Part shown: positions 8,136-20,864 of the stretch, in pieces | How the letters are laid out: each line of letters starts with the position of its first letter | Position numbering within the stretch: position 1 is the first letter of the stretch | Source: Patescibacteria group bacterium | GTDB lineage: Bacteria; Patescibacteriota; Patescibacteriia; Patescibacteriales; UBA12465 | Assembly (NCBI GenBank): GCA_027858435.1 | Contig: JAQICS010000035.1 | Coordinates: 1 to 32,161 of the forward strand | Direction: 5' to 3' | DNA length: 32,161 nucleotides | Made by a program: the position numbers and the translations under genes | The notes under the pieces: model-generated | The model's input: the letters and a program-made list of their open reading frames with translations, nothing else | The model's database searches: none | What the model was told of the DNA's origin: nothing

Positions 8136-8699
8136 ATGAAAAAATTTCTTTTATTTATCTGGGAGTTAGTAAAAGTGGCCGCAATTTCTGCAGCTATTAT
8201 TATCCCTGTTAGATATTACTTAATACAACCCTTTTATGTAAAAGGAGCTTCAATGGAGCCCAATTTTCATGATAGTGAATATTTAATTGTTGATGAGATA
8301 AGTTATCGTTTTAATGAACCAAATCGTGGCCAAGTAATTGTTTTTAGATACCCTAAAAATCCTCAAGAATATTTTATTAAAAGAATAATTGGTTTACCAG
8401 GAGAAGAGTTACAAATTAAAGATGGAGATGTTGTTGTATATAATGAAAATAATCCTCAAGGTTTAGTGTTAAACGAAACTTACTTGAAAACAGACTTAGA
8501 AACATTTAATTCAGATACAAAAAAAATAAAACTTGCTGATGATGAATATTTTGTTTTAGGGGATAATAGAAATGCTTCAAAAGACTCAAGAAGTTTTGGA
8601 GTACTTGATAATAACTTTATCATTGGAAAAGTATTATTACGTGGCTGGCCACTAGATAATATAACAGTTTTTAATAAGGAATTTTGGCCTATATATTAA
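8136..8699 (+). CDS. lepB: Signal peptidase I (LepB)
   Basis: Type I signal peptidase removes signal peptides from exported proteins at the outer face of the membrane. The 187-aa length is that of the compact Gram-positive-type enzymes. One N-terminal membrane segment (about residues 9-31) is followed by the catalytic serine in GASMEPN (Ser39), the general-base lysine in FIKRIIGLPGE (Lys82), and the conserved GDNRNASKDSRSFG box near the C terminus. The active site is intact. It leads an operon with hisS and rpsU. The giant secreted proteins downstream in the window have A-x-A-type cleavage sites (SLA-Q, VLA-Q, VKA-Q) that would suit this enzyme. The ATG at 8136 follows an AT-rich leader without Shine-Dalgarno. 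Confidence 0.96.
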   Translation: MKKFLLFIWELVKVAAISAAIIIPVRYYLIQPFYVKGASMEPNFHDSEYLIVDEISYRFNEPNRGQVIVFRYPKNPQEYFIKRIIGLPGEELQIKDGDVVVYNENNPQGLVLNETYLKTDLETFNSDTKKIKLADDEYFVLGDNRNASKDSRSFGVLDNNFIIGKVLLRGWPLDNITVFNKEFWPIY

Positions 8700-8707
8700 C
8701 AAATATT

Positions 8708-10108
8708 ATGAATAATCAAAAAAGTAAAACTAAAAAAACAAAAAACACAAATAATTCAAGCTCTTCAAATAAAGCAGTTAAGAAGAGTCATAAGCGACCA
8801 GGAAGAGTGATGGGCGTTAAGGATTACGCTGGCTTTGAAGGTGAATCATTTTCTTTATTAAAAGAAAAGATTAATCAGTTCGCTAATTATTATAGTTTAA
8901 AAAACATTGAAGTTCCGATTATTGAAAGCTATGATTTATATAAAAAATCAAAGAGAGTTGAAAATGATAAGGAGCTATACTTTGTTGAAGGTGAAAAAGG
9001 TGAAAAACTAGTTTTAAGACCTGAGATTACTCAAGGAGTAATTAGATCACTTTTAGAAAATAATTTATTTGAAAATTCAAATTCACATAGACTATTTTCA
9101 TTAGGTAAAGTTTTCAGAAAAGAAAAACTTAAATCTGGTCACTACAGAGAATTTACGCAAGCTAATTTTGAAATTATTGGTGATAGAAAACCTATTACCG
9201 AAGCCCTATTTCTAGCAGCCGTATCCGAGTTATATAAAGACTTAGGTATTAATATTCAAATACAAATAAACTGTTTAGGAGATCATACTTGTCGTAAGGA
9301 ATATTCCTCTAAGTTATCAGCATTTTTTAAAGAGAGAGGAAAAAAATCTAAAATGTGTACATGTTGTAAAAATGTTTTAGCTAAAAACCCTATCGCCCTA
9401 CTAGATTGCACTGAAGAATCTTGCCAATCAATTAGAGAAGAGGCTCCACAAATATTGGATTCCTTATCACCTGATAGTCGTGAATATTTCACTAAAACTC
9501 TAGAGTATTTAGATGAAATGAATGTAAACTACAATCTTTCTCCATATTTAGTTAGAGGCTTTAGCTATTACACCGACACTGTTTATGAATTTTGGTCAGT
9601 AAATGAAGATGGAGAAATTAATGGTAAAAATTCTTTAGCCGCTGGTGGAAGATATGATAACTATATTGAAAGTTTTGATGGAGAAGAAGTCCCAGCTTTT
9701 GGTTTAGCTATTGGACTAGAGAGAACATTAGCTAGAATTAAAGATAAGTCCCTCTTGAATTTTAAAAAAGAAGATGATATTATATTTATCGCCCAACTTG
9801 GAGATCAAGCAAGGATAAAATGTTTAAAATTATTCAAAAATTTACAAGCAGAAGGATTTAAAGTGAGACAGTCTTTAACATCTGATAGTTTAAAAATTCA
9901 ATTGGAAGAAGCTGCTAAAATGAAAGCTAAAACAAGTTTAATTTTAGGAAAAAAAGAGATTATGGATGGCACAGTTCTTCTAAGAGATATGGATTCTGGG
10001 GCCCAAGAAACTGTTATATTTAAAAAAGTAAAAGAAAGGTTAATTAAGATGAATAAAATAACAGAAAAAAAAGTTAATATTAGAAAGGAGGCTGGGATTT
10101 ATGGCTGA
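8708..10108 (+). CDS. hisS: Histidyl-tRNA synthetase
   Basis: This class II synthetase charges tRNA-His. The listed TTG start at 8684 lies inside lepB; the ATG at 8708, eight bases after the lepB stop, is preferred and gives 466 aa. An ATG at 8810 would cut into the GVKDY motif. Motif 2 is FRKEKLKSGHYREFTQANFE. The HisRS signature is LVRGFSYYTDTVYEF, and motif 3 is in GLAIGLER. The C-terminal anticodon-binding domain starts near IIFIAQLGDQ. Unusual points are a Lys/Ser/Asn-rich tail of about 35 residues before the catalytic domain and a Cys cluster (CTCCKNVLAKNP...LDCTEESC) that could bind zinc. HisRS rather than HisZ is favoured by the anticodon domain. The 3' end overlaps rpsU by eight bases and contains its ribosome-binding site. 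Confidence 0.92.
   Translation: MNNQKSKTKKTKNTNNSSSSNKAVKKSHKRPGRVMGVKDYAGFEGESFSLLKEKINQFANYYSLKNIEVPIIESYDLYKKSKRVENDKELYFVEGEKGEKLVLRPEITQGVIRSLLENNLFENSNSHRLFSLGKVFRKEKLKSGHYREFTQANFEIIGDRKPITEALFLAAVSELYKDLGINIQIQINCLGDHTCRKEYSSKLSAFFKERGKKSKMCTCCKNVLAKNPIALLDCTEESCQSIREEAPQILDSLSPDSREYFTKTLEYLDEMNVNYNLSPYLVRGFSYYTDTVYEFWSVNEDGEINGKNSLAAGGRYDNYIESFDGEEVPAFGLAIGLERTLARIKDKSLLNFKKEDDIIFIAQLGDQARIKCLKLFKNLQAEGFKVRQSLTSDSLKIQLEEAAKMKAKTSLILGKKEIMDGTVLLRDMDSGAQETVIFKKVKERLIKMNKITEKKVNIRKEAGIYG
10084..10091 (+). promoter_or_regulatory. Strong Shine-Dalgarno for rpsU
   Basis: AAAGGAGG lies nine bases before the rpsU ATG, inside the hisS coding region. It is the only near-perfect anti-16S match found in front of a gene in this window; nearly all other starts follow AT-rich leaders without one. 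Confidence 0.85.
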
Positions 10109-10337
10109 TTTTAAAAGAAAACCGGGTGAAAGTTTTGAAGGTTTTTTACGTAAGTTTAAAAGAGGATTAAAGAACAGTAAAAAGCTGAATAAAGCTAGAT
10201 CTAAAAAACATTTAGAATCTAAAACCACCAAACAAAAGCAAAAGAAAAAAGCTTTAATTGGTTTAGAACTACAGAAGAAAAATGAGTATTTACGTAAAAT
10301 TGGAAAAATGCCTGAGAGTAACGGCAGACGTAGATAA
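10101..10337 (+). CDS. rpsU: Small ribosomal subunit protein bS21
   Basis: This 78-aa very basic protein matches bS21 in order and spacing: KPGESFEGFLRKFKRGLKNS aligns with the family's 'ENEPFDvALRRFKRsceKaG' start, followed by a Lys-rich helix (SKKHLESKTTKQKQKKKAL). bS21 sits on the 30S platform next to the 3' end of 16S rRNA and the anti-Shine-Dalgarno. A C-terminal extension (LIGLELQKKNEYLRKIGK) makes it slightly longer than the E. coli protein. It is the last gene of the lepB-hisS-rpsU unit, overlapping hisS by eight bases, and is followed by a clear terminator. The strong ribosome-binding site is unusual in this window and may be regulatory. The minus-strand ORF across it is a shadow. 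Confidence 0.9.
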   Translation: MADFKRKPGESFEGFLRKFKRGLKNSKKLNKARSKKHLESKTTKQKQKKKALIGLELQKKNEYLRKIGKMPESNGRRR

Positions 10338-10351
10338 ACAAAAACAAAAAT

Positions 10352-10388
10352 AAAAAACATCATTACTGCAAAGCAATGATGTTTTTTT
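10352..10388. terminator. Bidirectional Rho-independent terminator between rpsU and rel
   Basis: AAAAAACATCATT pairs with AATGATGTTTTTT (13 base pairs) around a short loop that can form two further GC pairs. The A-tract and T-tract on either side allow it to end both rpsU (plus) and the convergent rel gene (minus). Confidence 0.9.
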
Positions 10389-11968: not shown

Positions 11969-14719
11969 ATGAAAGGAAAAATAAAATTTTTAGTCTTGTT
12001 TTTTGGTATATTAGCTTTCTTCTTTATAGCTAATACTTCATTAGCGCAGACAAATCAAACAAATGACTACGGAGTTCAAAAGGTGGGAGAACAATTAGAT
12101 GGAAGATTAGGTGAAACTCAAGATGTTAGAGTTACTGTGGTGCGCTTTATTCAACTAGCTCTAAGTTTCTTGGGTATAATTGCAGTTATTATTATTCTTT
12201 ATGCTGGTTTTCTCTGGATGACATCAGGTGGTAATGAGGAAAAAATAGCTCGAGCTAAAAAAATATTAATAAATGCAGTAATTGGTTTAGTAATTATTTT
12301 ATCAGCTTGGACAATAGCTACTTATTTAATTAATAGGATAAGTGGTATTACCGGTGAAGGCGGCGGCAGTGGATTGGTTTATGACACACCACCAACTGGT
12401 TTTTATAACCCAGGTGCAGGAGCAATTGGAGTTTGCTCAGTACAAAGTACTTATCCAGAACATAAACAAAAAGATGTAGCTAGAAATTCTTCAATAATGA
12501 TTATGTTTAAAGAGGAAGTTGATTTAAACTCTATTTGTATAGATAATGCTGGTACAAGTTGTGCTTGTGATAATGATGTATGTAATAAATTAAATCCTGA
12601 GGTAATCAAAATATATAAGACCGATTTTGGTGATGCTTGTGGTAGTGGTACTTGCCCAAATAATGATGCCAACACAAATGTTACTGATGTGTTAGTATCT
12701 GTTCCAAGTAGTAATAAAACTTTAGTATTAAAACCATTAAATAATCTTGGTTCAAGTGATGGATATACTCCCTATACAGTTAATTTTAGTGAAAGAATTA
12801 AAAAACTAGATGGAGATTCTATTTTTAGAGGTTGTTCTAGTAATTACTTAGAAATAAACTTTACCGTTAGCAATGTCTTAGATTTGAGTCCTCCTCAAAT
12901 AATTGATGGAGGAGTTTTTCCACCACCAGATAATGAAAAAGATTATGTTGGTGAAGATAATCCTGCTCAAGCAGCTAGTGCGGAAATAAAAGTAAATTCT
13001 TGTCCACAAAAATATAATTCAGCTTCAATTATTTCTGTTAAAGATGGAGAGGGTCAAAGTGAAAACTTTGAAGTAAATATTTCTGATTACAGTGGAGAAA
13101 TAGATAAGTTTGAAATTTCTGTTCCTACTGATAGTGAAAATAAAGCCCAATTATTTAACGGAAACACTGGCGCTTTATTAGGAGTTACAGATTTTGTAAA
13201 CAATGAGGCATATTTTAATGATTTTGATTTAACTCTTACAGTAGATGAACATCCAGAAGGAAGTTTTTGGGAGATAGAAATAATGACAGAAAAATTAGCA
13301 GATAGTTTAAGAATTAACTCATCTGTTTATATATTTTATGATTCAAGTGTTAATAATAAAATAGAAGTGGTTGAGAATTGTAATTCAAATTCTAATGAAG
13401 ATTTAGCTACTCAAGCTACAAAGATAAAAGCGATAATTAGTGGCAACTCGAGTATTGAAATAATGGAATCAGAAGATTCTAGTTTAATATCTCTTGAAGC
13501 TAAAGTAGCTGGTAGTTCTGGAAATAATATTGCTCTTGAATTTGAAGGAAGTGAAGCGATAAGTGTAACCCCATTTTCAGGAGGCGTAGATAGTGATAGT
13601 ACAAGTCAAATAAATAAAAAAGAAGATAAACCAAGAAACTCAGCTCTACAAATTAATTTTAATGAAGCTATTAATCCCGTAACAGTTTCTGGGACTGCTG
13701 AGGAAGTTTCAAAGGCTATTAAGCTTGTTAATTATAATTCCCAAGCTGGTGGAAGCAATGATCAGTGTAGTGCTAATTCTGATTGCTTGTCATATAAATG
13801 TGAAAATTCTAGATGCATTGGTGATTTTGTAAATGGAAGCTATACTCTTTCAAGTGATTATGAAACAGTTGAATTTGTTTCTGATAATGAATGTGGTGTA
13901 AATGGTTGTGGGGAAGTTATATATTGTCTTCCAGCAAATAGTCATTTAAAGGTGGAAATAAATGCCGCTAATTTAAAAGAGTGTAGCAATGATAATAATT
14001 GTGCTGCTTTAAGTCCGTATACTTCTTGTACGACAAACGAGCTCAATTACAATACTTGTCAGGATGATGAAGGTAATAACTATCCATCAGCTAATTTAAC
14101 TAATCTTGATGGGGTAGTTGACGCTGCTATTAATTCTTTAGATGGTAATAGAAATTTATACAGTGATGGACCGGTAAATTTTTATAATCAAAATAATGCA
14201 AATATTGAAGACGGTGATAGTTATAGTTATTCTTTCTTTATCACAAATGATATTAAATTAGATCCTCCTAAAATTATTTCAATTAGTCCAAGTCAAGGAG
14301 GAGAAGGGGTGAAGCCAAGTAAAAATATTGATATTAGATTTAATTCTTTAATATTAAATAACACACTGCGAAGCGGAGATGTTGACATAGAAAGTGGAGA
14401 TAATATTTTTAATCATAAATATATTAATCTAAAAAGTGGGTCACCAGCTGCTTTTGGTTTTTGGATTAGATCAGAAAATATTGACACTGAGCCAATGGAC
14501 GGGGAACCTGATTTGTCAATTGCATCAATTAACCATACTCCTCTACCTGAATCAATGACTTTCTATAGCCAAGTTGGCTCAGGTGTTAAAGATATATATC
14601 AGAATTGCTACAAACCTGCCGTTGGGCCAGGATGTAGTCAAATTGATGCGTCTTGTTGTTTCGGTAATAATACTAATGTACTAGATCTAGATCAGGATGG
14701 TAATTGTATAATAGAGTAA
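11969..14719 (+). CDS. Secreted protein with VirB2-like pilin head and Big_5 ectodomain (first pilin-headed surface protein)
   Basis: This is a 916-aa surface protein. Residues 1-26 form a signal peptide ending SLA|Q. Residues about 59-84 and 99-121 are two membrane segments joined by the loop MTSGGNEEKIARAKK, the pattern of the short TrbC/VirB2-like pilins common in CPR genomes. With the N terminus outside after cleavage, the long C-terminal part should also be outside. From about residue 154 there is a Big_5-like Ig fold (YPEHKQKDVARNSSIMIMF). A middle segment has GSSGNNIALEF...SGGVD, reminiscent of modules in phage tail proteins. Near residue 768 a second Big_5 begins (ISPSQGGEGVKPSKNIDIRF). 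The C terminus is Cys-rich and ends in an Asp-rich loop. It heads a set of three similar giant genes. The head assignment is firm; the role (adhesion, pilus tip or surface layer) is inferred. Confidence 0.85.
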   Translation: MKGKIKFLVLFFGILAFFFIANTSLAQTNQTNDYGVQKVGEQLDGRLGETQDVRVTVVRFIQLALSFLGIIAVIIILYAGFLWMTSGGNEEKIARAKKILINAVIGLVIILSAWTIATYLINRISGITGEGGGSGLVYDTPPTGFYNPGAGAIGVCSVQSTYPEHKQKDVARNSSIMIMFKEEVDLNSICIDNAGTSCACDNDVCNKLNPEVIKIYKTDFGDACGSGTCPNNDANTNVTDVLVSVPSSNKTLVLKPLNNLGSSDGYTPYTVNFSERIKKLDGDSIFRGCSSNYLEINFTVSNVLDLSPPQIIDGGVFPPPDNEKDYVGEDNPAQAASAEIKVNSCPQKYNSASIISVKDGEGQSENFEVNISDYSGEIDKFEISVPTDSENKAQLFNGNTGALLGVTDFVNNEAYFNDFDLTLTVDEHPEGSFWEIEIMTEKLADSLRINSSVYIFYDSSVNNKIEVVENCNSNSNEDLATQATKIKAIISGNSSIEIMESEDSSLISLEAKVAGSSGNNIALEFEGSEAISVTPFSGGVDSDSTSQINKKEDKPRNSALQINFNEAINPVTVSGTAEEVSKAIKLVNYNSQAGGSNDQCSANSDCLSYKCENSRCIGDFVNGSYTLSSDYETVEFVSDNECGVNGCGEVIYCLPANSHLKVEINAANLKECSNDNNCAALSPYTSCTTNELNYNTCQDDEGNNYPSANLTNLDGVVDAAINSLDGNRNLYSDGPVNFYNQNNANIEDGDSYSYSFFITNDIKLDPPKIISISPSQGGEGVKPSKNIDIRFNSLILNNTLRSGDVDIESGDNIFNHKYINLKSGSPAAFGFWIRSENIDTEPMDGEPDLSIASINHTPLPESMTFYSQVGSGVKDIYQNCYKPAVGPGCSQIDASCCFGNNTNVLDLDQDGNCIIE

Positions 14720-14756: not shown

Positions 14757-17700
14757 ATGATAAAAAGAAAACAAATTTTTAAATATTTAGGCTTTTTTCT
14801 AATTTTTGTTGGAATTTTAGCTTTTCGTTTTGTTCTAGCACAAAACTATGGTGTTGATGAAGTTGGTACTCAACTGGGAGGAAGTTTAGGAGAAACCAAC
14901 ACTGACCCTAGAGCACTGGCAACCAGGATAATTAATATTTCTTTGGGATTTTTAGGAATAATAGCTTTGATTATTATTCTATACGCTGGTTTTTTATGGA
15001 TGACTTCAGGTGGCAATGAAGAAAAAATTGCTAAAGCTCGTAAAACTTTAATTGCTGGAGTTATTGGTTTAGTTATTATTCTTTCTTCTTGGGGCTTAGC
15101 TTCTTGGTTGATAAAAACTATAAGTGATACCACAAACGGAACTGGTGGTGATATAACCTATGAAGATGGTGACTCTCGTTCTTGTGGTTGTGTTGGATAT
15201 CAGTTATTTAATAATGGTTCCTGGGGCTCATGTCTTGGTGAAGGAGATTGTAGCGGTCCTGGCGGAGGTTTACCAGAAAGCTGTGATGCAAATGGGCTTG
15301 TTTCTGGTTGTCAGGTCGACAATGATATTTGTGGTGCTAGTGCATATTGTAATGATGAATGTGTTTGTGAGACTTTAGGTGATTCAGGTGATTCTTGTAA
15401 TTTAAGTGGTGAAGAAGGTGTTTGTCAGGCTAGTGATGACTTATGTGGTCAGTATTTAACTTGTAATCCTGATTCTTGTGTTTGTGAAGGATCTCCTGTC
15501 ATTACAGGAATAAGTCCAGTTGGGGGATTTTGTCAAAATGAGCAAAATAAAAGTTGTCAGGATGATAGTGATTGTGAAGACGTATGTAATTTAACTGCCC
15601 CAAATGGAGCACCAAGCAATTTCTTAACTATTAGTGGTCAAAATTTTGGTGAATATGATCCAGAATTAAGTAGGGTTATTTTTGTCGGAAACAATAATTT
15701 AAAAGAAGGAGTATTACCGGATACTATAAACCCAAACTGTATTAGTTTCTGGAGAAATGATCAAATAATTATTGCAATTCCTGAAGGTGCTGGTACTGGT
15801 CCAATTAAAATAATTGATTATCAAGATAAATCAGATCAAACTAATGATGAATATGGACCAATAATTCCTGATTTTAGATCAAATAATATAGTTAGACCGG
15901 GATTATGTGAAATAGATCCAGTTAGTGGAAAATTAAGTGCTGAAATTTCATACTCAGGTGTTAATTTATACAATGGTAGAGCATATTTTGGAAATTATAA
16001 TAGTAATGTAAAAGCTCTATCATCTGATTTTGAAAATAACGGCTTAACTGGTAAATCAGTAATACCTAACATTGAAGCTGGTGAATCTGGTAGTTTTGTA
16101 AAGGCTAGTATAAGTGGTAATGAAGAAAATAGTAATTACCTTACTTTTATAAAAGAAAGAGAGGAAAATGAGGGTTCTTTTATTTCCTACTTTAAACCTT
16201 TAGATGGAAATGCTGGTCAATACGTTACCATTTATGGATCTGGTTTTGGTAGAACAAAAGGGGCTAAATCAGTATATTTTGGTGAAACTGAGGCTTCATA
16301 TGATTTTCCTGAAGTTTGTTTAAATTCTGTTTGGAGTGAAGATGAAATAACAGTTAAAGTTCCGGCTGGATTAGAGGACGATGATTATATAATTAGAGTA
16401 GAATTAGACGAGACTAGTATTAGTACTGAAGAATTAAATCCAGATTCTTTTGAATTTGATAAAAATAAAGATTTAAAAACAAGTTTGTGTAAAATTGATC
16501 CAGAAAGAGGAACTATTAACACTGAAGTTTCACTATGGGGGGAATATTTTGGAGATAAAGATGCTGAGGTCCTAGTCAGTTTTAATGGTAGTGCTGATTA
16601 TATAAGTGAAAAAGTTGAAAAAGATGGAAGAGCTGACTTGCTTCAAACTTCAGTTCCAGAAGGTGCTATAACAGGACCCGTTAAAGTTAAAAAAAATAAT
16701 GAATATGGAAATGAATTAAATTTTACAGTTGGTAAATGTAGTAGTAATTCAGATTGTGGAGGGCAGTTTTGTTGTCCAGAAGGAACATATAAAGAAGGAT
16801 CTTGTGTAAGTAATTTTGGTGGTTGTTATGTTGATGTTCCAAGTTCAGTTTATGAATGGAGTTTTAGTACAACATTTTCTGAAACAATACCCGATGCAGA
16901 TAGTTGTGCAGGCTTAGCTCAAGCCACAGGTTTTTGTAGTACTGGTATGTGTCCTAATGTTCCAGGTATGTGTTCACCTTATTCTGGTGGAGAAAAAGTT
17001 TATGGAGAAGATTGTAGTTACGATTGTACTAAGGTTATTGGTTGTCGTTTGGGTGAAAAAGACTGTTCATATAATGTAAACTTAGATAAATGTTTACAAA
17101 TATTAGAAGGTGATGAAAGTAATAATTGTAATTTAGAGAAAGATGTTGAATATGAATTTAACGGTGAAACAATAAATACAACTGCAACTTGTAATAATAA
17201 TGGAAACTGGGAGATAAATGTTTCAACTACTTGCCCAGAAAACTACGATAAAGGAATAGGGGATATTTGTTATAACCCTGAGTCCGAATGTAGAAATTGT
17301 GAAGATGGTCTTAGTTGTCAATTGGTAGGTGGTTCAGAGCGTTGTGTTTCTGAAAAACTTTGTGATGAAGGATCGGTGTGTGAATCAGAAAACGGTTTAT
17401 CCAATGGACAATGTGTTTCAATAACTAGTGCTAGTTGTGAATGTTGTTGCACAATTGGTAAAAGTGCTCGTGATTGTTGTAGTTTTCAAACTGAATCAGA
17501 AGTTACAGTTCAACTTGAATGTGGCGGAACTTGTGGTAGTGCAAGTGATGTTGATAATGGTTATGGAGTTTGTGGTGGTTGCGCTGCTGCTTCTGATTCA
17601 TCAGCTGAGCTAAGAGATGCGGCTTGTAGTTGTAGTGGTCATAGTGGCCAATATTGTGAAGTTAATGATGATGCTCCTGAAGGATATTGTACTGATTGCT

Positions 17701-20700
17701 CAAGTTTAAGCTCTGAAGCTTGTGTTGAACACGCTGATGTTTGTTGTCTAGATTCAAATGGAACAGAAGAAACTTCTGATGACATATGTCGTGGAGGAGT
17801 AGGGGATATAATTACAGATAATGAAAATAGTGGAGACTATGGCTATTGCGCATATTATGATTGTTCAGATGATAGTACCTGTGCTAGTAGTACTCCTTTA
17901 AAGGTGGGAGGTTTTCTTGACGTTAATAAATGTGAAACAGGGTGTGCAGTTGAAGATCCTTGTTCTGGTATTAATAACTACGAAGATTGTGTAAATCAAG
18001 CCACTGGTAATTGTTGTTTTGATAATGATAGTAACGAATGTAAATCAGGTGAAGCAATAGACAATAGTTCTGATAATGATGGTTATTGCGCTTATTATGA
18101 TTGCATGGAAAATGAAGATGCTTGTGATAGTAGTACACCTTCAAAAAATGGAGATTATCTTGGTTTAAATGAATGTGAAGATGCTTGTGAAGACCCTCAA
18201 ATTGGAGCTGATTTAGAATGTGTTAATACTACAAGCAAAATTGAAGCATGTAATACATCGTTGTGTGGTGGAAGTGGACTTTCGTGTTTAACTGATACTG
18301 GAGCTTTAGGGCCAGTTGGTGATAGCGATTGTGGCGTTTGTTGTTGTGATCCAAGTCAGGAAAATAATAATTCTGGAGTTGATGGAAACCTTATTTGTTT
18401 AGCTAATCAAGGTGCTTGCACAGGCGGTGATAGGGGTCTTTATTGTGGTTGTGAAAGCGATAGTCAATGCGGGAATATTGATGCTATTGGTTGTGGATTA
18501 GATACTTGTTGTCATGCTAGGCCAGAAATAGTTTCTACAAATCCAGAACATTTAGCAGATAATGTATGTAGAAACGCTAGTTTAAGAGTTCAATTTAATC
18601 AATTAATGAGTGCTGAATCTGTAACAGATAATGTTATATTAATTGAAGAAAAAATTAACGCAAATGAACCATGTGACAACGGAACATTTATTGCTAGCGC
18701 TAATTCAATTGATGGTGTATATGATGATAAAATAAATGTTTTTGCTAAAGTTTCAAATTTCTTTAAAAATACCTACCGAAAAGTAGCAAGTTTAATTTCT
18801 CCTTCGTTTAATAGAAGGGCTCTTGCTAGTCCACCCAGTGAGGATAATCTGTATTGTTTAGTTCCAGGTAATGCAAGTTTAGAAAATGATGAAAATACCA
18901 GCACTATTGTTTATAATTCAAATACCCTACTTGATGCTTCAACTAACTATTATTTAGTTATTAAAGGTGATGAAGTATTAGATAGTAATACTGGAGTTTT
19001 CAGCTTAGATGGAATTGGATTTAATGGAAGTGGATATGAAGGCAGTGAAGAAGAAAATATTAAATTTAATCAAGTTAGTTATAAAAATTCACATATTATT
19101 AAATTTTCAACTATTTCAGATCAAGAAACATCTGGTATTTGTTTAATTGATAGAATGGAATTAGAGCCAGTTAGTTATTTATTTAATACACATGATGATG
19201 CTCTTGACTCTGATGAGTTAGATGAGTATGGAGTAGATAGTTTTGATACGCAAGCTGATAGAGATAAAGTTTGGACAGCTAACGCTTATAGTGATAGTCA
19301 AGTGATTAGACCGGTAATTGGATATTATTGGGATTATAATTTTACCATTTCAAATGATGAGATAGTTAGTGGAGAAAAATTAGAAGATATGCCAGATAAT
19401 CAATACTTTGTAAGTGCTCAGGATGAAATAACTGATGGACACACCAAATTAAACGCAGTAATTGATATGAACCCTTACAGTGAAGATGGAGGATGTTCTT
19501 TTAGTTCTAGTTGTGCTGATAATAATAATTGTTGTAATGATTATTTAAAGGGAGACGGCTTTAGTGACATAAGTGATATTTATGTCTTTATCTGCAATAA
19601 TCCATGGCCTAAAAAAAGTGCTAGTGGACTTTGGTCACCATGGAAAGACACAGATGACAATTGTTCAGTAGGGGATACAAATTGTAATGATTTTAATTAC
19701 AGCTTCTATTACTGCCGTGATGCAGGAAAAGATGGAACCTTTGATGACCTGCCAGCAGTTTTAAATGATCCAGTAATTATTGGACAAAAGGATAATAATG
19801 ACAACTTAGTTTGTAGTTCAGATAGATCCGCTACTTGTGAAAGCGTAAATGATTCCTGTGGAGAAGATGCTAATAATGATGGTATTTCAGATGGTATTTG
19901 TATTTGGAACGTTTTAAAAGAATCATATTTCTTTAGAGAAGAACTTCCTTCATCAGGAGAAATAACAAGAGTAATTGATTTAAAAACTGGTGGAGCAATA
20001 AAAATAGAATGGCAATCAAACGTAGAGCAAGTTGCTTCTTATAAAATATATTATATTAAATCAGGAGATAGTAATATTTCCTTTAAAGAAGTGGGAACTG
20101 ATGTTTGCAATGAAATTGACTCAACATATAAATGTGAAGTTACTCTATCTGGACTTGAAAATGAAATAAATTATTCATTTAGAATCGGGGTTATATCTAC
20201 TGGAGGAGCAGAAAGTCAAGCGATAAATGAAAGAATTAAAATGCCAACAGACAAGGAGGAGCCACCTACACCAGTTGGCTTATCTGCAGAAGTTGAAGGT
20301 GATAGAGTAAAAATTAGCTGGGAGGAAAATGAAGATGACAATGACACTTATTTCTATCGTCTATATATGGGAACTACTTCTGGTATACCTGGTAAATCAT
20401 TTGATACAAGCAATAAAGACGATATTGAAGGAAATGAGTTAAATAGTTTATACATCTCAAAAGAAGAATTTTCCTCCAACATTAATTATCTAAGCTTATC
20501 AGCTTTTGATAGATATAATAATGAGAGTGAAAAAACAGACGAAGAAACAATTGACGTAAGACCAGCTACTCCAACAGACTTAAATGCAGAATTAGGTGAG
20601 GAGGGTAATAATATAAAAATAACTTGGACAGAAAATGATGAAAATGTTTATTTCTACCGTCTTTATTTAGGAAATATTTCTGGTCAATACACAAAATCGT

Positions 20701-20864
20701 TTGACACAGACTTTAAAATAGAAGGAGAGCCGTTAAATAGTTTAAATATTTCTAAAGATGAATTTTATACAGATACCAATTATCTAAGCTTAACAGCTTT
20801 TGATAAATTTGATTTCAAAAGTAATAAATCTGATGAAATAACATTTACTTTTGAAGAAGAATAA
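14757..20864 (+). CDS. Giant secreted protein with VirB2-like pilin head, IPT/TIG, Cys-rich, Big_5 and Fn3-like modules
   Basis: This 2035-aa protein is a paralogue of the preceding one in its head: signal peptide to VLA|Q (residue 28), then two membrane segments (about 60-83 and 99-122) around MTSGGNEEKIAKARK. The ectodomain runs in order: Cys-rich segment (about 140-245); IPT/TIG-like folds starting near 246 (ITGISPVGG), 475 (GQYVTIYGSGFG) and 578 (TEVSLWGEYFG); a long Cys-rich region (about 660-1255) with CC pairs and internal repeats; a Big_5 domain (NPEHLADNVCRNASLRVQF) carrying a basic insertion; further beta-rich sequence; and two 100-residue Fn3-like repeats at the C terminus. Dozens of cysteines imply disulfide-stabilised extracellular folding. 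It lies 37 bases after the first pilin-headed gene, probably in one transcript. Function is likely attachment or cell-cell contact, by inference only. Confidence 0.85.
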   Translation: MIKRKQIFKYLGFFLIFVGILAFRFVLAQNYGVDEVGTQLGGSLGETNTDPRALATRIINISLGFLGIIALIIILYAGFLWMTSGGNEEKIAKARKTLIAGVIGLVIILSSWGLASWLIKTISDTTNGTGGDITYEDGDSRSCGCVGYQLFNNGSWGSCLGEGDCSGPGGGLPESCDANGLVSGCQVDNDICGASAYCNDECVCETLGDSGDSCNLSGEEGVCQASDDLCGQYLTCNPDSCVCEGSPVITGISPVGGFCQNEQNKSCQDDSDCEDVCNLTAPNGAPSNFLTISGQNFGEYDPELSRVIFVGNNNLKEGVLPDTINPNCISFWRNDQIIIAIPEGAGTGPIKIIDYQDKSDQTNDEYGPIIPDFRSNNIVRPGLCEIDPVSGKLSAEISYSGVNLYNGRAYFGNYNSNVKALSSDFENNGLTGKSVIPNIEAGESGSFVKASISGNEENSNYLTFIKEREENEGSFISYFKPLDGNAGQYVTIYGSGFGRTKGAKSVYFGETEASYDFPEVCLNSVWSEDEITVKVPAGLEDDDYIIRVELDETSISTEELNPDSFEFDKNKDLKTSLCKIDPERGTINTEVSLWGEYFGDKDAEVLVSFNGSADYISEKVEKDGRADLLQTSVPEGAITGPVKVKKNNEYGNELNFTVGKCSSNSDCGGQFCCPEGTYKEGSCVSNFGGCYVDVPSSVYEWSFSTTFSETIPDADSCAGLAQATGFCSTGMCPNVPGMCSPYSGGEKVYGEDCSYDCTKVIGCRLGEKDCSYNVNLDKCLQILEGDESNNCNLEKDVEYEFNGETINTTATCNNNGNWEINVSTTCPENYDKGIGDICYNPESECRNCEDGLSCQLVGGSERCVSEKLCDEGSVCESENGLSNGQCVSITSASCECCCTIGKSARDCCSFQTESEVTVQLECGGTCGSASDVDNGYGVCGGCAAASDSSAELRDAACSCSGHSGQYCEVNDDAPEGYCTDCSSLSSEACVEHADVCCLDSNGTEETSDDICRGGVGDIITDNENSGDYGYCAYYDCSDDSTCASSTPLKVGGFLDVNKCETGCAVEDPCSGINNYEDCVNQATGNCCFDNDSNECKSGEAIDNSSDNDGYCAYYDCMENEDACDSSTPSKNGDYLGLNECEDACEDPQIGADLECVNTTSKIEACNTSLCGGSGLSCLTDTGALGPVGDSDCGVCCCDPSQENNNSGVDGNLICLANQGACTGGDRGLYCGCESDSQCGNIDAIGCGLDTCCHARPEIVSTNPEHLADNVCRNASLRVQFNQLMSAESVTDNVILIEEKINANEPCDNGTFIASANSIDGVYDDKINVFAKVSNFFKNTYRKVASLISPSFNRRALASPPSEDNLYCLVPGNASLENDENTSTIVYNSNTLLDASTNYYLVIKGDEVLDSNTGVFSLDGIGFNGSGYEGSEEENIKFNQVSYKNSHIIKFSTISDQETSGICLIDRMELEPVSYLFNTHDDALDSDELDEYGVDSFDTQADRDKVWTANAYSDSQVIRPVIGYYWDYNFTISNDEIVSGEKLEDMPDNQYFVSAQDEITDGHTKLNAVIDMNPYSEDGGCSFSSSCADNNNCCNDYLKGDGFSDISDIYVFICNNPWPKKSASGLWSPWKDTDDNCSVGDTNCNDFNYSFYYCRDAGKDGTFDDLPAVLNDPVIIGQKDNNDNLVCSSDRSATCESVNDSCGEDANNDGISDGICIWNVLKESYFFREELPSSGEITRVIDLKTGGAIKIEWQSNVEQVASYKIYYIKSGDSNISFKEVGTDVCNEIDSTYKCEVTLSGLENEINYSFRIGVISTGGAESQAINERIKMPTDKEEPPTPVGLSAEVEGDRVKISWEENEDDNDTYFYRLYMGTTSGIPGKSFDTSNKDDIEGNELNSLYISKEEFSSNINYLSLSAFDRYNNESEKTDEETIDVRPATPTDLNAELGEEGNNIKITWTENDENVYFYRLYLGNISGQYTKSFDTDFKIEGEPLNSLNISKDEFYTDTNYLSLTAFDKFDFKSNKSDEITFTFEEE
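14844..15126 (+). repeat. Pilin-head segment duplicated from 12057-12354
   Basis: The two pilin heads match at protein level over about 95 residues (YGVxxVGxQLxGxLGET, then GFLWMTSGGNEEKIA) and visibly at DNA level around the loop. The ectodomains that follow are unrelated in layout. This looks like duplication or exchange of an anchoring cassette. Confidence 0.8.
17742..18195 (+). repeat. Tandem Cys-rich YCAYYDC modules
   Basis: Two units inside the 2035-aa protein begin with CC pairs at 17742 and 18012 and share GYCAYYDC, then an SSTP.K..G..L..N.CE..C pattern. The first unit is 90 residues and the second is shorter. They are diverged, so this is an old protein-level duplication. Confidence 0.75.
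20262..20861 (+). repeat. Two 100-residue Fn3-like repeats
   Basis: Units start near PTPVGLSAEVEG and ATPTDLNAELGE. They share FYRLYxGxxSG, KSFDT, LNSLxISKxEF and NYLSLxAFD. The shared TATTTCTA(T/C)CGTCT at 20349 and 20649 shows a period of exactly 300 bases. They form the extreme C terminus of the giant protein. Confidence 0.85.

Follow-up and report, generated by a model that had tools for sequence, protein, structure and literature searches.

Why does one small ribosomal-protein gene carry a strong Shine-Dalgarno (SD) sequence in a stretch of DNA that otherwise nearly lacks them, and does this point to feedback by its product, bS21? The gene, rpsU, lies in a window of 32,161 bases, which is one entire contig of a 916-kb genome in 70 contigs (completeness 92.75%) from a Falkowbacteria-type host (Patescibacteria/CPR). 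The features that matter at the locus are as follows.

8684-10108, plus strand: hisS, histidyl-tRNA synthetase, the 5' neighbour of rpsU (open reading frame, Pfam)
10081-10091, plus strand: extended SD TAGAAAGGAGG (sequence, 16S tail, duplex energy, conservation in relatives, covariation with 16S)
10092-10100, plus strand: 9-nt spacer CTGGGATTT between the SD and the ATG at 10101 (sequence)
10101-10337, plus strand: rpsU, bS21, 78 aa (Pfam, profile alignment, lineage profile)
10352-10387, no strand assigned: symmetric terminator-like hairpin between the convergent rpsU and rel (scan and sequence)

The rpsU product scores 22.5 bits against Pfam PF01165, under the curated cut-off of 27; the bS21 family profile aligns to solved bS21 chains (E = 2.8e-6), and the lineage profile has matches in 253 of 286 genomes of the class. 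The sequence immediately 5' of the gene is ATTAGAAAGGAGGCTGGGATTTATG. The hisS TGA (10106-10108) and the rpsU start overlap by 8 nt, so that the rpsU SD sits within the final hisS codons. The hisS reading frame is listed from a TTG at 8684, and the ATG at 8708 is possibly its true start. An antisense reading frame (10040-10363, minus strand) displaces rpsU in automatic longest-ORF calling, and rpsU was therefore entered manually, giving a set of 824 called genes plus rpsU. The hairpin downstream was reported by the scan on the minus strand, and a T run is present on the plus strand as well.

The initial annotation had pointed to a strong SD at ideal spacing, and the sequence confirms it, with AAAGGAGG at 10084-10091 and a 9-nt spacer to the ATG at 10101. 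This genome's 16S gene contains CCTCC and ends in GGATCACCTCCTTTCTAGGG, which makes TAGAAAGGAGG a perfect 11-nt complement of the tail (CCTCCTTTCTA), longer than AAAGGAGG. The complementary part of the 16S tail is CCUCCUUUCUA, with predicted pairs running from C1535 to the A after U1544 (E. coli numbering). The anti-SD is intact, the genome's own tail being GGATCACCTCCTTTCT, and CCTCCTTTCT is found in its 16S as well as in 25 of 25 family genomes for which the 3' end was read. Pairing energies were computed as ViennaRNA duplexes between a 13-nt tail, UCACCUCCUUUCU, and leader positions -21 to -4, and on this scale the rpsU duplex reaches -17.4 kcal/mol. Autogenous operators that mimic an rRNA site are a common mode of control for other ribosomal proteins, and bS21 might likewise bind a structured mimic in its leader. 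However, the rpsU leader folds no better than its shuffles (z = 0.06), showing no stable fold usable as a classical operator, and the window has zero Rfam matches; we rejected this idea as scarcely credible.

All other called genes in the window have energies between -2.9 and +3.5 kcal/mol, so rpsU is indeed alone with a strong SD there, as the initial annotation had it. Genome-wide, strong SDs prove very rare, and the stronger statement that rpsU has the only one does not strictly hold. Three of approximately 825 genes lie at or below -16 kcal/mol (0.05 expected from shuffled leaders), 15 at or below -10 (1.8 expected from shuffled leaders, genome-wide), and 43 of 825 at or below -6 (22 expected from shuffled leaders). 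Between -3 and -8 kcal/mol, the leaders give fewer matches than a mock region. We do not claim a general depletion of SDs, because the deficit vanishes against composition-matched shuffles, where only the small excess of strong SDs is seen. The genome is nonetheless largely without SDs, a property that counts among the criteria for Bacteroidota-type autoregulation by bS21.

A first reading of the strong rpsU SD is that it serves expression only, with a few very abundant small proteins (bS21, the T4SS pilin and the H1-like nucleoid protein) relying on ordinary SD initiation in a lineage that has given it up elsewhere, and no feedback involved. E. coli queries recovered 44 genes for comparison, comprising 37 other ribosomal-protein genes and 7 for translation, transcription or secretion, while 6 queries had no match. 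The strongest SDs among these 44 belong to tufA (-6.4 kcal/mol) and rpsB (-6.2), and none of the 37 other ribosomal-protein genes found is stronger than -6.2, which indicates that high expression alone brings no SD in this genome. One would expect the other ribosomal proteins, EF-Tu and EF-G to equal or exceed bS21 in abundance, bS21 itself being required 1:1 with the other ribosomal proteins, and rpsU alone was seen to have the signal over most of the phylum.

What speaks for the expression reading is that rpsU shares its extended SD with a few other genes, beyond the excess of some 15 genes at or below -10 kcal/mol over the 1.8 expected. The strongest SDs in the genome besides that of rpsU precede a Lys/Ala-rich H1-like gene (genome G000, C17:15855-16091, locus L018; -21.9 kcal/mol, SD AGAAAGGAGGTGA) and a small T4SS pilin gene (PF18895; G000 C3:4671-5084, locus L004; -16.9 kcal/mol). 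Relatives share both: the H1-like gene has AGAAAGGAGGTGA in G010 and AGAAAGGGGGTGA in G030, and, judged by matching coordinates, 25 or more of 39 family genomes have CTAGAAAGG[T/G/A/C]GGTGA at the pilin gene. In the Flavobacteriales form of the model, no gene but rpsU has an SD above the chance level; here, the H1-like gene, the pilin gene and about a dozen more lie at or below -10 kcal/mol. Since the pilin and H1-like genes have equally strong SDs, such pairing is not reserved for bS21, and the simple Flavobacterium model of rpsU alone is not transferable. Taking both sides together, we consider the expression reading unlikely.

Two side observations concern these genes. The giant secreted proteins of 916 and 2,035 aa encoded in the window (11969-14719 and 14757-20864) have an N-terminal T4SS pilin-type membrane domain, with 50-56% identity to the free-standing pilin that has the extended SD. 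Furthermore, about a dozen accessory-looking genes have GGAGG-type leaders (in genome G000, C9:7138, C9:8257, C39:1933, C41:14644, C42:926, C42:1361, C46:4839, C54:9439 and C3:8039), two of them having AATATAAACTAAAAC ahead of the SD in common. They may be exchanged genes that retain another SD usage, or may come from a contaminating source.

The rpsU SD is deeply conserved. All 25 same-family rpsU loci found with Pfam keep an extended SD, at -15.7 to -17.4 kcal/mol; the 25 family genomes with a 16S tail read are partly other genomes than these. The two outcomes that the initial annotation had named as refuting its idea, many strong SDs across the genome or relatives that lack the SD, were thus both looked for and neither was seen. 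In named Patescibacteria assemblies, which partly overlap with these genomes, 70 of 74 rpsU loci lie at or below -13 kcal/mol, and rpsU has the strongest SD of its own locus in 71 of the 74. Other families of the class contributed 40 sampled loci, of which 35 pass the same threshold, whereas just 8 of 1,092 neighbouring genes (0.7%) in the family and named-assembly sets do so. Outside the class but within the phylum, 20 of 33 families have an extended rpsU SD, in a sample that was read from short loci and is mildly biased by the use of the best of nearby start codons. The extended SD is missing in the short-bS21 clade (families f97, f117, f138, f149, f167 and f178), in f125, f112 and f122, in single members of f3, f45, f24, f57 and f52, and in the six Chloroflexi rpsU genes inspected.

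This conservation bears on two further alternatives. Given the 8-nt overlap with hisS in the window, the SD might merely serve re-initiation at a downstream start that is translationally coupled to hisS. In relatives, however, the long reading frame 5' of rpsU ends anywhere between 14 nt inside rpsU and 99 nt ahead of it, and a gap of 36-99 nt goes with an SD just as strong, as is also seen in other families; we therefore rejected coupling, which is very improbable. A second possibility is that the element senses 16S 3' maturation, whereby the 5' block (C)TAGAAAG pairs past position 1542, perhaps only on 16S that is still immature or has been trimmed differently, and rpsU is read by assembling subunits. 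The conservation of CTAGAAAGG at rpsU in many relatives, with pairing that reaches CCUUUCUAG, would fit such a sensor. Against it, many rpsU SDs outside the class are confined to AAGGAGGTGA, and the mature 16S tail of some bacteria includes UUUCU. Although bS21 assembles late (PMC10931766), as a maturation sensor would have it, we regard this explanation as doubtful.

Additional support for the pairing comes from genomes in which the 16S core itself has changed. In family f15, the 16S tail is TGGACCATCTCC, with the core UCUCC, and the rpsU SD is GGAGAT(G) in place of GGAGGT(G). Two f15 genomes with UCUCC in their own 16S, G118 and G187, have the rpsU SDs GGAGATGTG and GGAGATGG, respectively; GGAGAT is also present in G205, in G046 and at the second rpsU-like start of G220, all of f15, and G236 has GGAG-C-ATGG, a bulged variant of the same form. 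Independently, the 16S core of G223 (f21) is ACUCC and its rpsU SD is AAGGAGTTAT (GGAGT). The SDs of f15 and of G223 pair better with the tail of their own genome or family than with the canonical tail; part of the loci in this test were obtained by pattern searches with short matched strings. That rpsU has the compensating base where the 16S core is mutated argues for selection on the pairing, the same kind of evidence as the Chryseobacteria-type anti-SD UCUCA with its compensating SD (PMC8710568). Deep conservation, compensatory change and the restriction to a single ribosomal-protein gene together show, at the level of sequence comparison, that pairing of the rpsU leader with the 16S tail is real and under selection.

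Anti-SD core variants (UCUCC, ACUCC and CCUCA) were seen in families f15, f21, f56 and f69 (L296, L297, L302, L304, L312 and L323), with CCUCA as the core in f56 and f69. Such changes are perhaps tolerated because few genes use SDs. One f15 genome, G220 (5% estimated contamination), has two rpsU-like starts on contigs C56 and C15, both behind GGAGA-type SDs.

Two findings go beyond the initial annotation: the extended SDs of the pilin and H1-like genes, and a bulge of free identity in most Falkowbacteria-type rpsU SDs. Fifty of 64 distinct Falkowbacteria-type rpsU leaders have one extra mRNA nucleotide in their best pairing (51 of 64 under slightly looser settings), mostly between the C1538 and U1537 pairs, in the form (C)TAGAAAGG-N-AGGTG. 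The bulged N is A, C or T; G is possible too and is scored as a wobble pair. The window's own rpsU SD is of the unbulged type. Other strong-SD genes are bulged in only 10 of 57 cases (Fisher p ~1e-11, uncorrected for relatedness). Deleting the bulge would shift the mean computed energy from -16.6 to -20.3 kcal/mol, and the energies of Falkowbacteria-type rpsU lie close to -16.5 (standard deviation 0.9). Since the blocks on either side are retained whereas the bulged base varies freely, it is the interruption as such that seems to be preserved, and the bulged duplex appears to be held in place by selection. We infer that the bulge tunes release of the duplex. If the SD were there for strength only, as the expression reading would have it, a weakening bulge would be unexpected.

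The explanation that best accounts for these observations, and the one we consider probable by analogy with the Bacteroidota, is a feedback loop in which bS21 is sensed via the extended rpsU SD. In the Bacteroidota-type model, the 16S tail is reportedly sequestered in a pocket formed by bS21, bS18 and bS6. In CPR, rpsU mRNA pairs with the 16S 3' tail over 11-13 bp, while almost all other mRNAs are translated without SD pairing, and bS21 would be located beside the tail. On 30S subunits lacking bS21, the tail would be more available, or initiation on SD-less mRNAs poorer, so that such subunits would preferentially translate rpsU mRNA and thereby replenish bS21; once bS21 is replete, rpsU translation would drop back. 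With the central bulge of most relatives, the duplex stays near -16.5 kcal/mol, a strength that may let it compete for the tail and still release it. Feedback of the F. johnsoniae type explains both the restriction of the element to rpsU among ribosomal-protein genes and its tracking of the 16S tail.

In F. johnsoniae, feedback of bS21 on rpsU by bS21-lacking ribosomes has been shown experimentally, and such specialisation was predicted only within Bacteroidota (McNutt et al. 2023, PMC9976891). The sequence criteria given there for rpsU autoregulation are that rpsU has the strongest SD of the ribosomal-protein genes and that it lies below -13 kcal/mol (PMC9976891). Of the Flavobacteriia-like feedback suggested for this locus by the initial annotation, part is supported: the genome is nearly SD-less and the anti-SD intact, rpsU is at -17.4 kcal/mol versus -6.2 or weaker for other ribosomal-protein genes, pairing extends past the CCUCC core, and the SD compensates where the core has changed (UCUCC/GGAGAT in f15, ACUCC/GGAGT in G223). 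Other parts do not carry over. The phylum is Patescibacteria, the duplex usually has one bulged mRNA nucleotide, and the extended SD is shared with a few non-ribosomal genes. The bS21 here is longer and has another C-terminus than the Bacteroidia type, and no CPR bS21 in the alignment compared has an aromatic residue at the position of Flavobacterium Tyr54; ABY1-type bS21 does have an almost invariant tyrosine elsewhere, Tyr63. Chlorobia offer a parallel in that their rpsU shows both sequence criteria without Tyr54, with a mechanism that is putative there as in CPR; unlike CPR, they belong to Bacteroidota, and no bulge is mentioned for them (PMC9976891). Phage-encoded bS21 likewise makes this protein a possible handle on the ribosome's choice of mRNA (PMC9723584), but it is a viral paralogue with no part in the CPR rpsU case. 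In the literature searched, we found no report of an extended rpsU SD in CPR; papers beyond that set may exist.

The bS21-sensing loop could also be part of something wider. Tentatively, and with the odds against it, rpsU, the T4SS surface pilin and the H1-like nucleoid protein may form an extended-SD regulon that is preferentially read by bS21-deficient ribosomes, with the conserved central bulge or mismatch at U1537/C1538 tuning release. If so, surface and nucleoid genes would switch together with the supply of bS21 itself whenever bS21 is lost.

We thus view the CPR rpsU signature as a probable variant of the known bS21-type system, in which we infer the feedback step. The same bS21 signature, together with compensatory evolution, now extends across much of a second phylum that is very large and mostly uncultured, and its presence in both phyla reflects either deep ancestry or convergence. 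It provides an example of a bulged SD duplex that is apparently maintained by selection, and a concrete starting point for testing how ribosomes in CPR choose their mRNAs where almost no gene has an SD.
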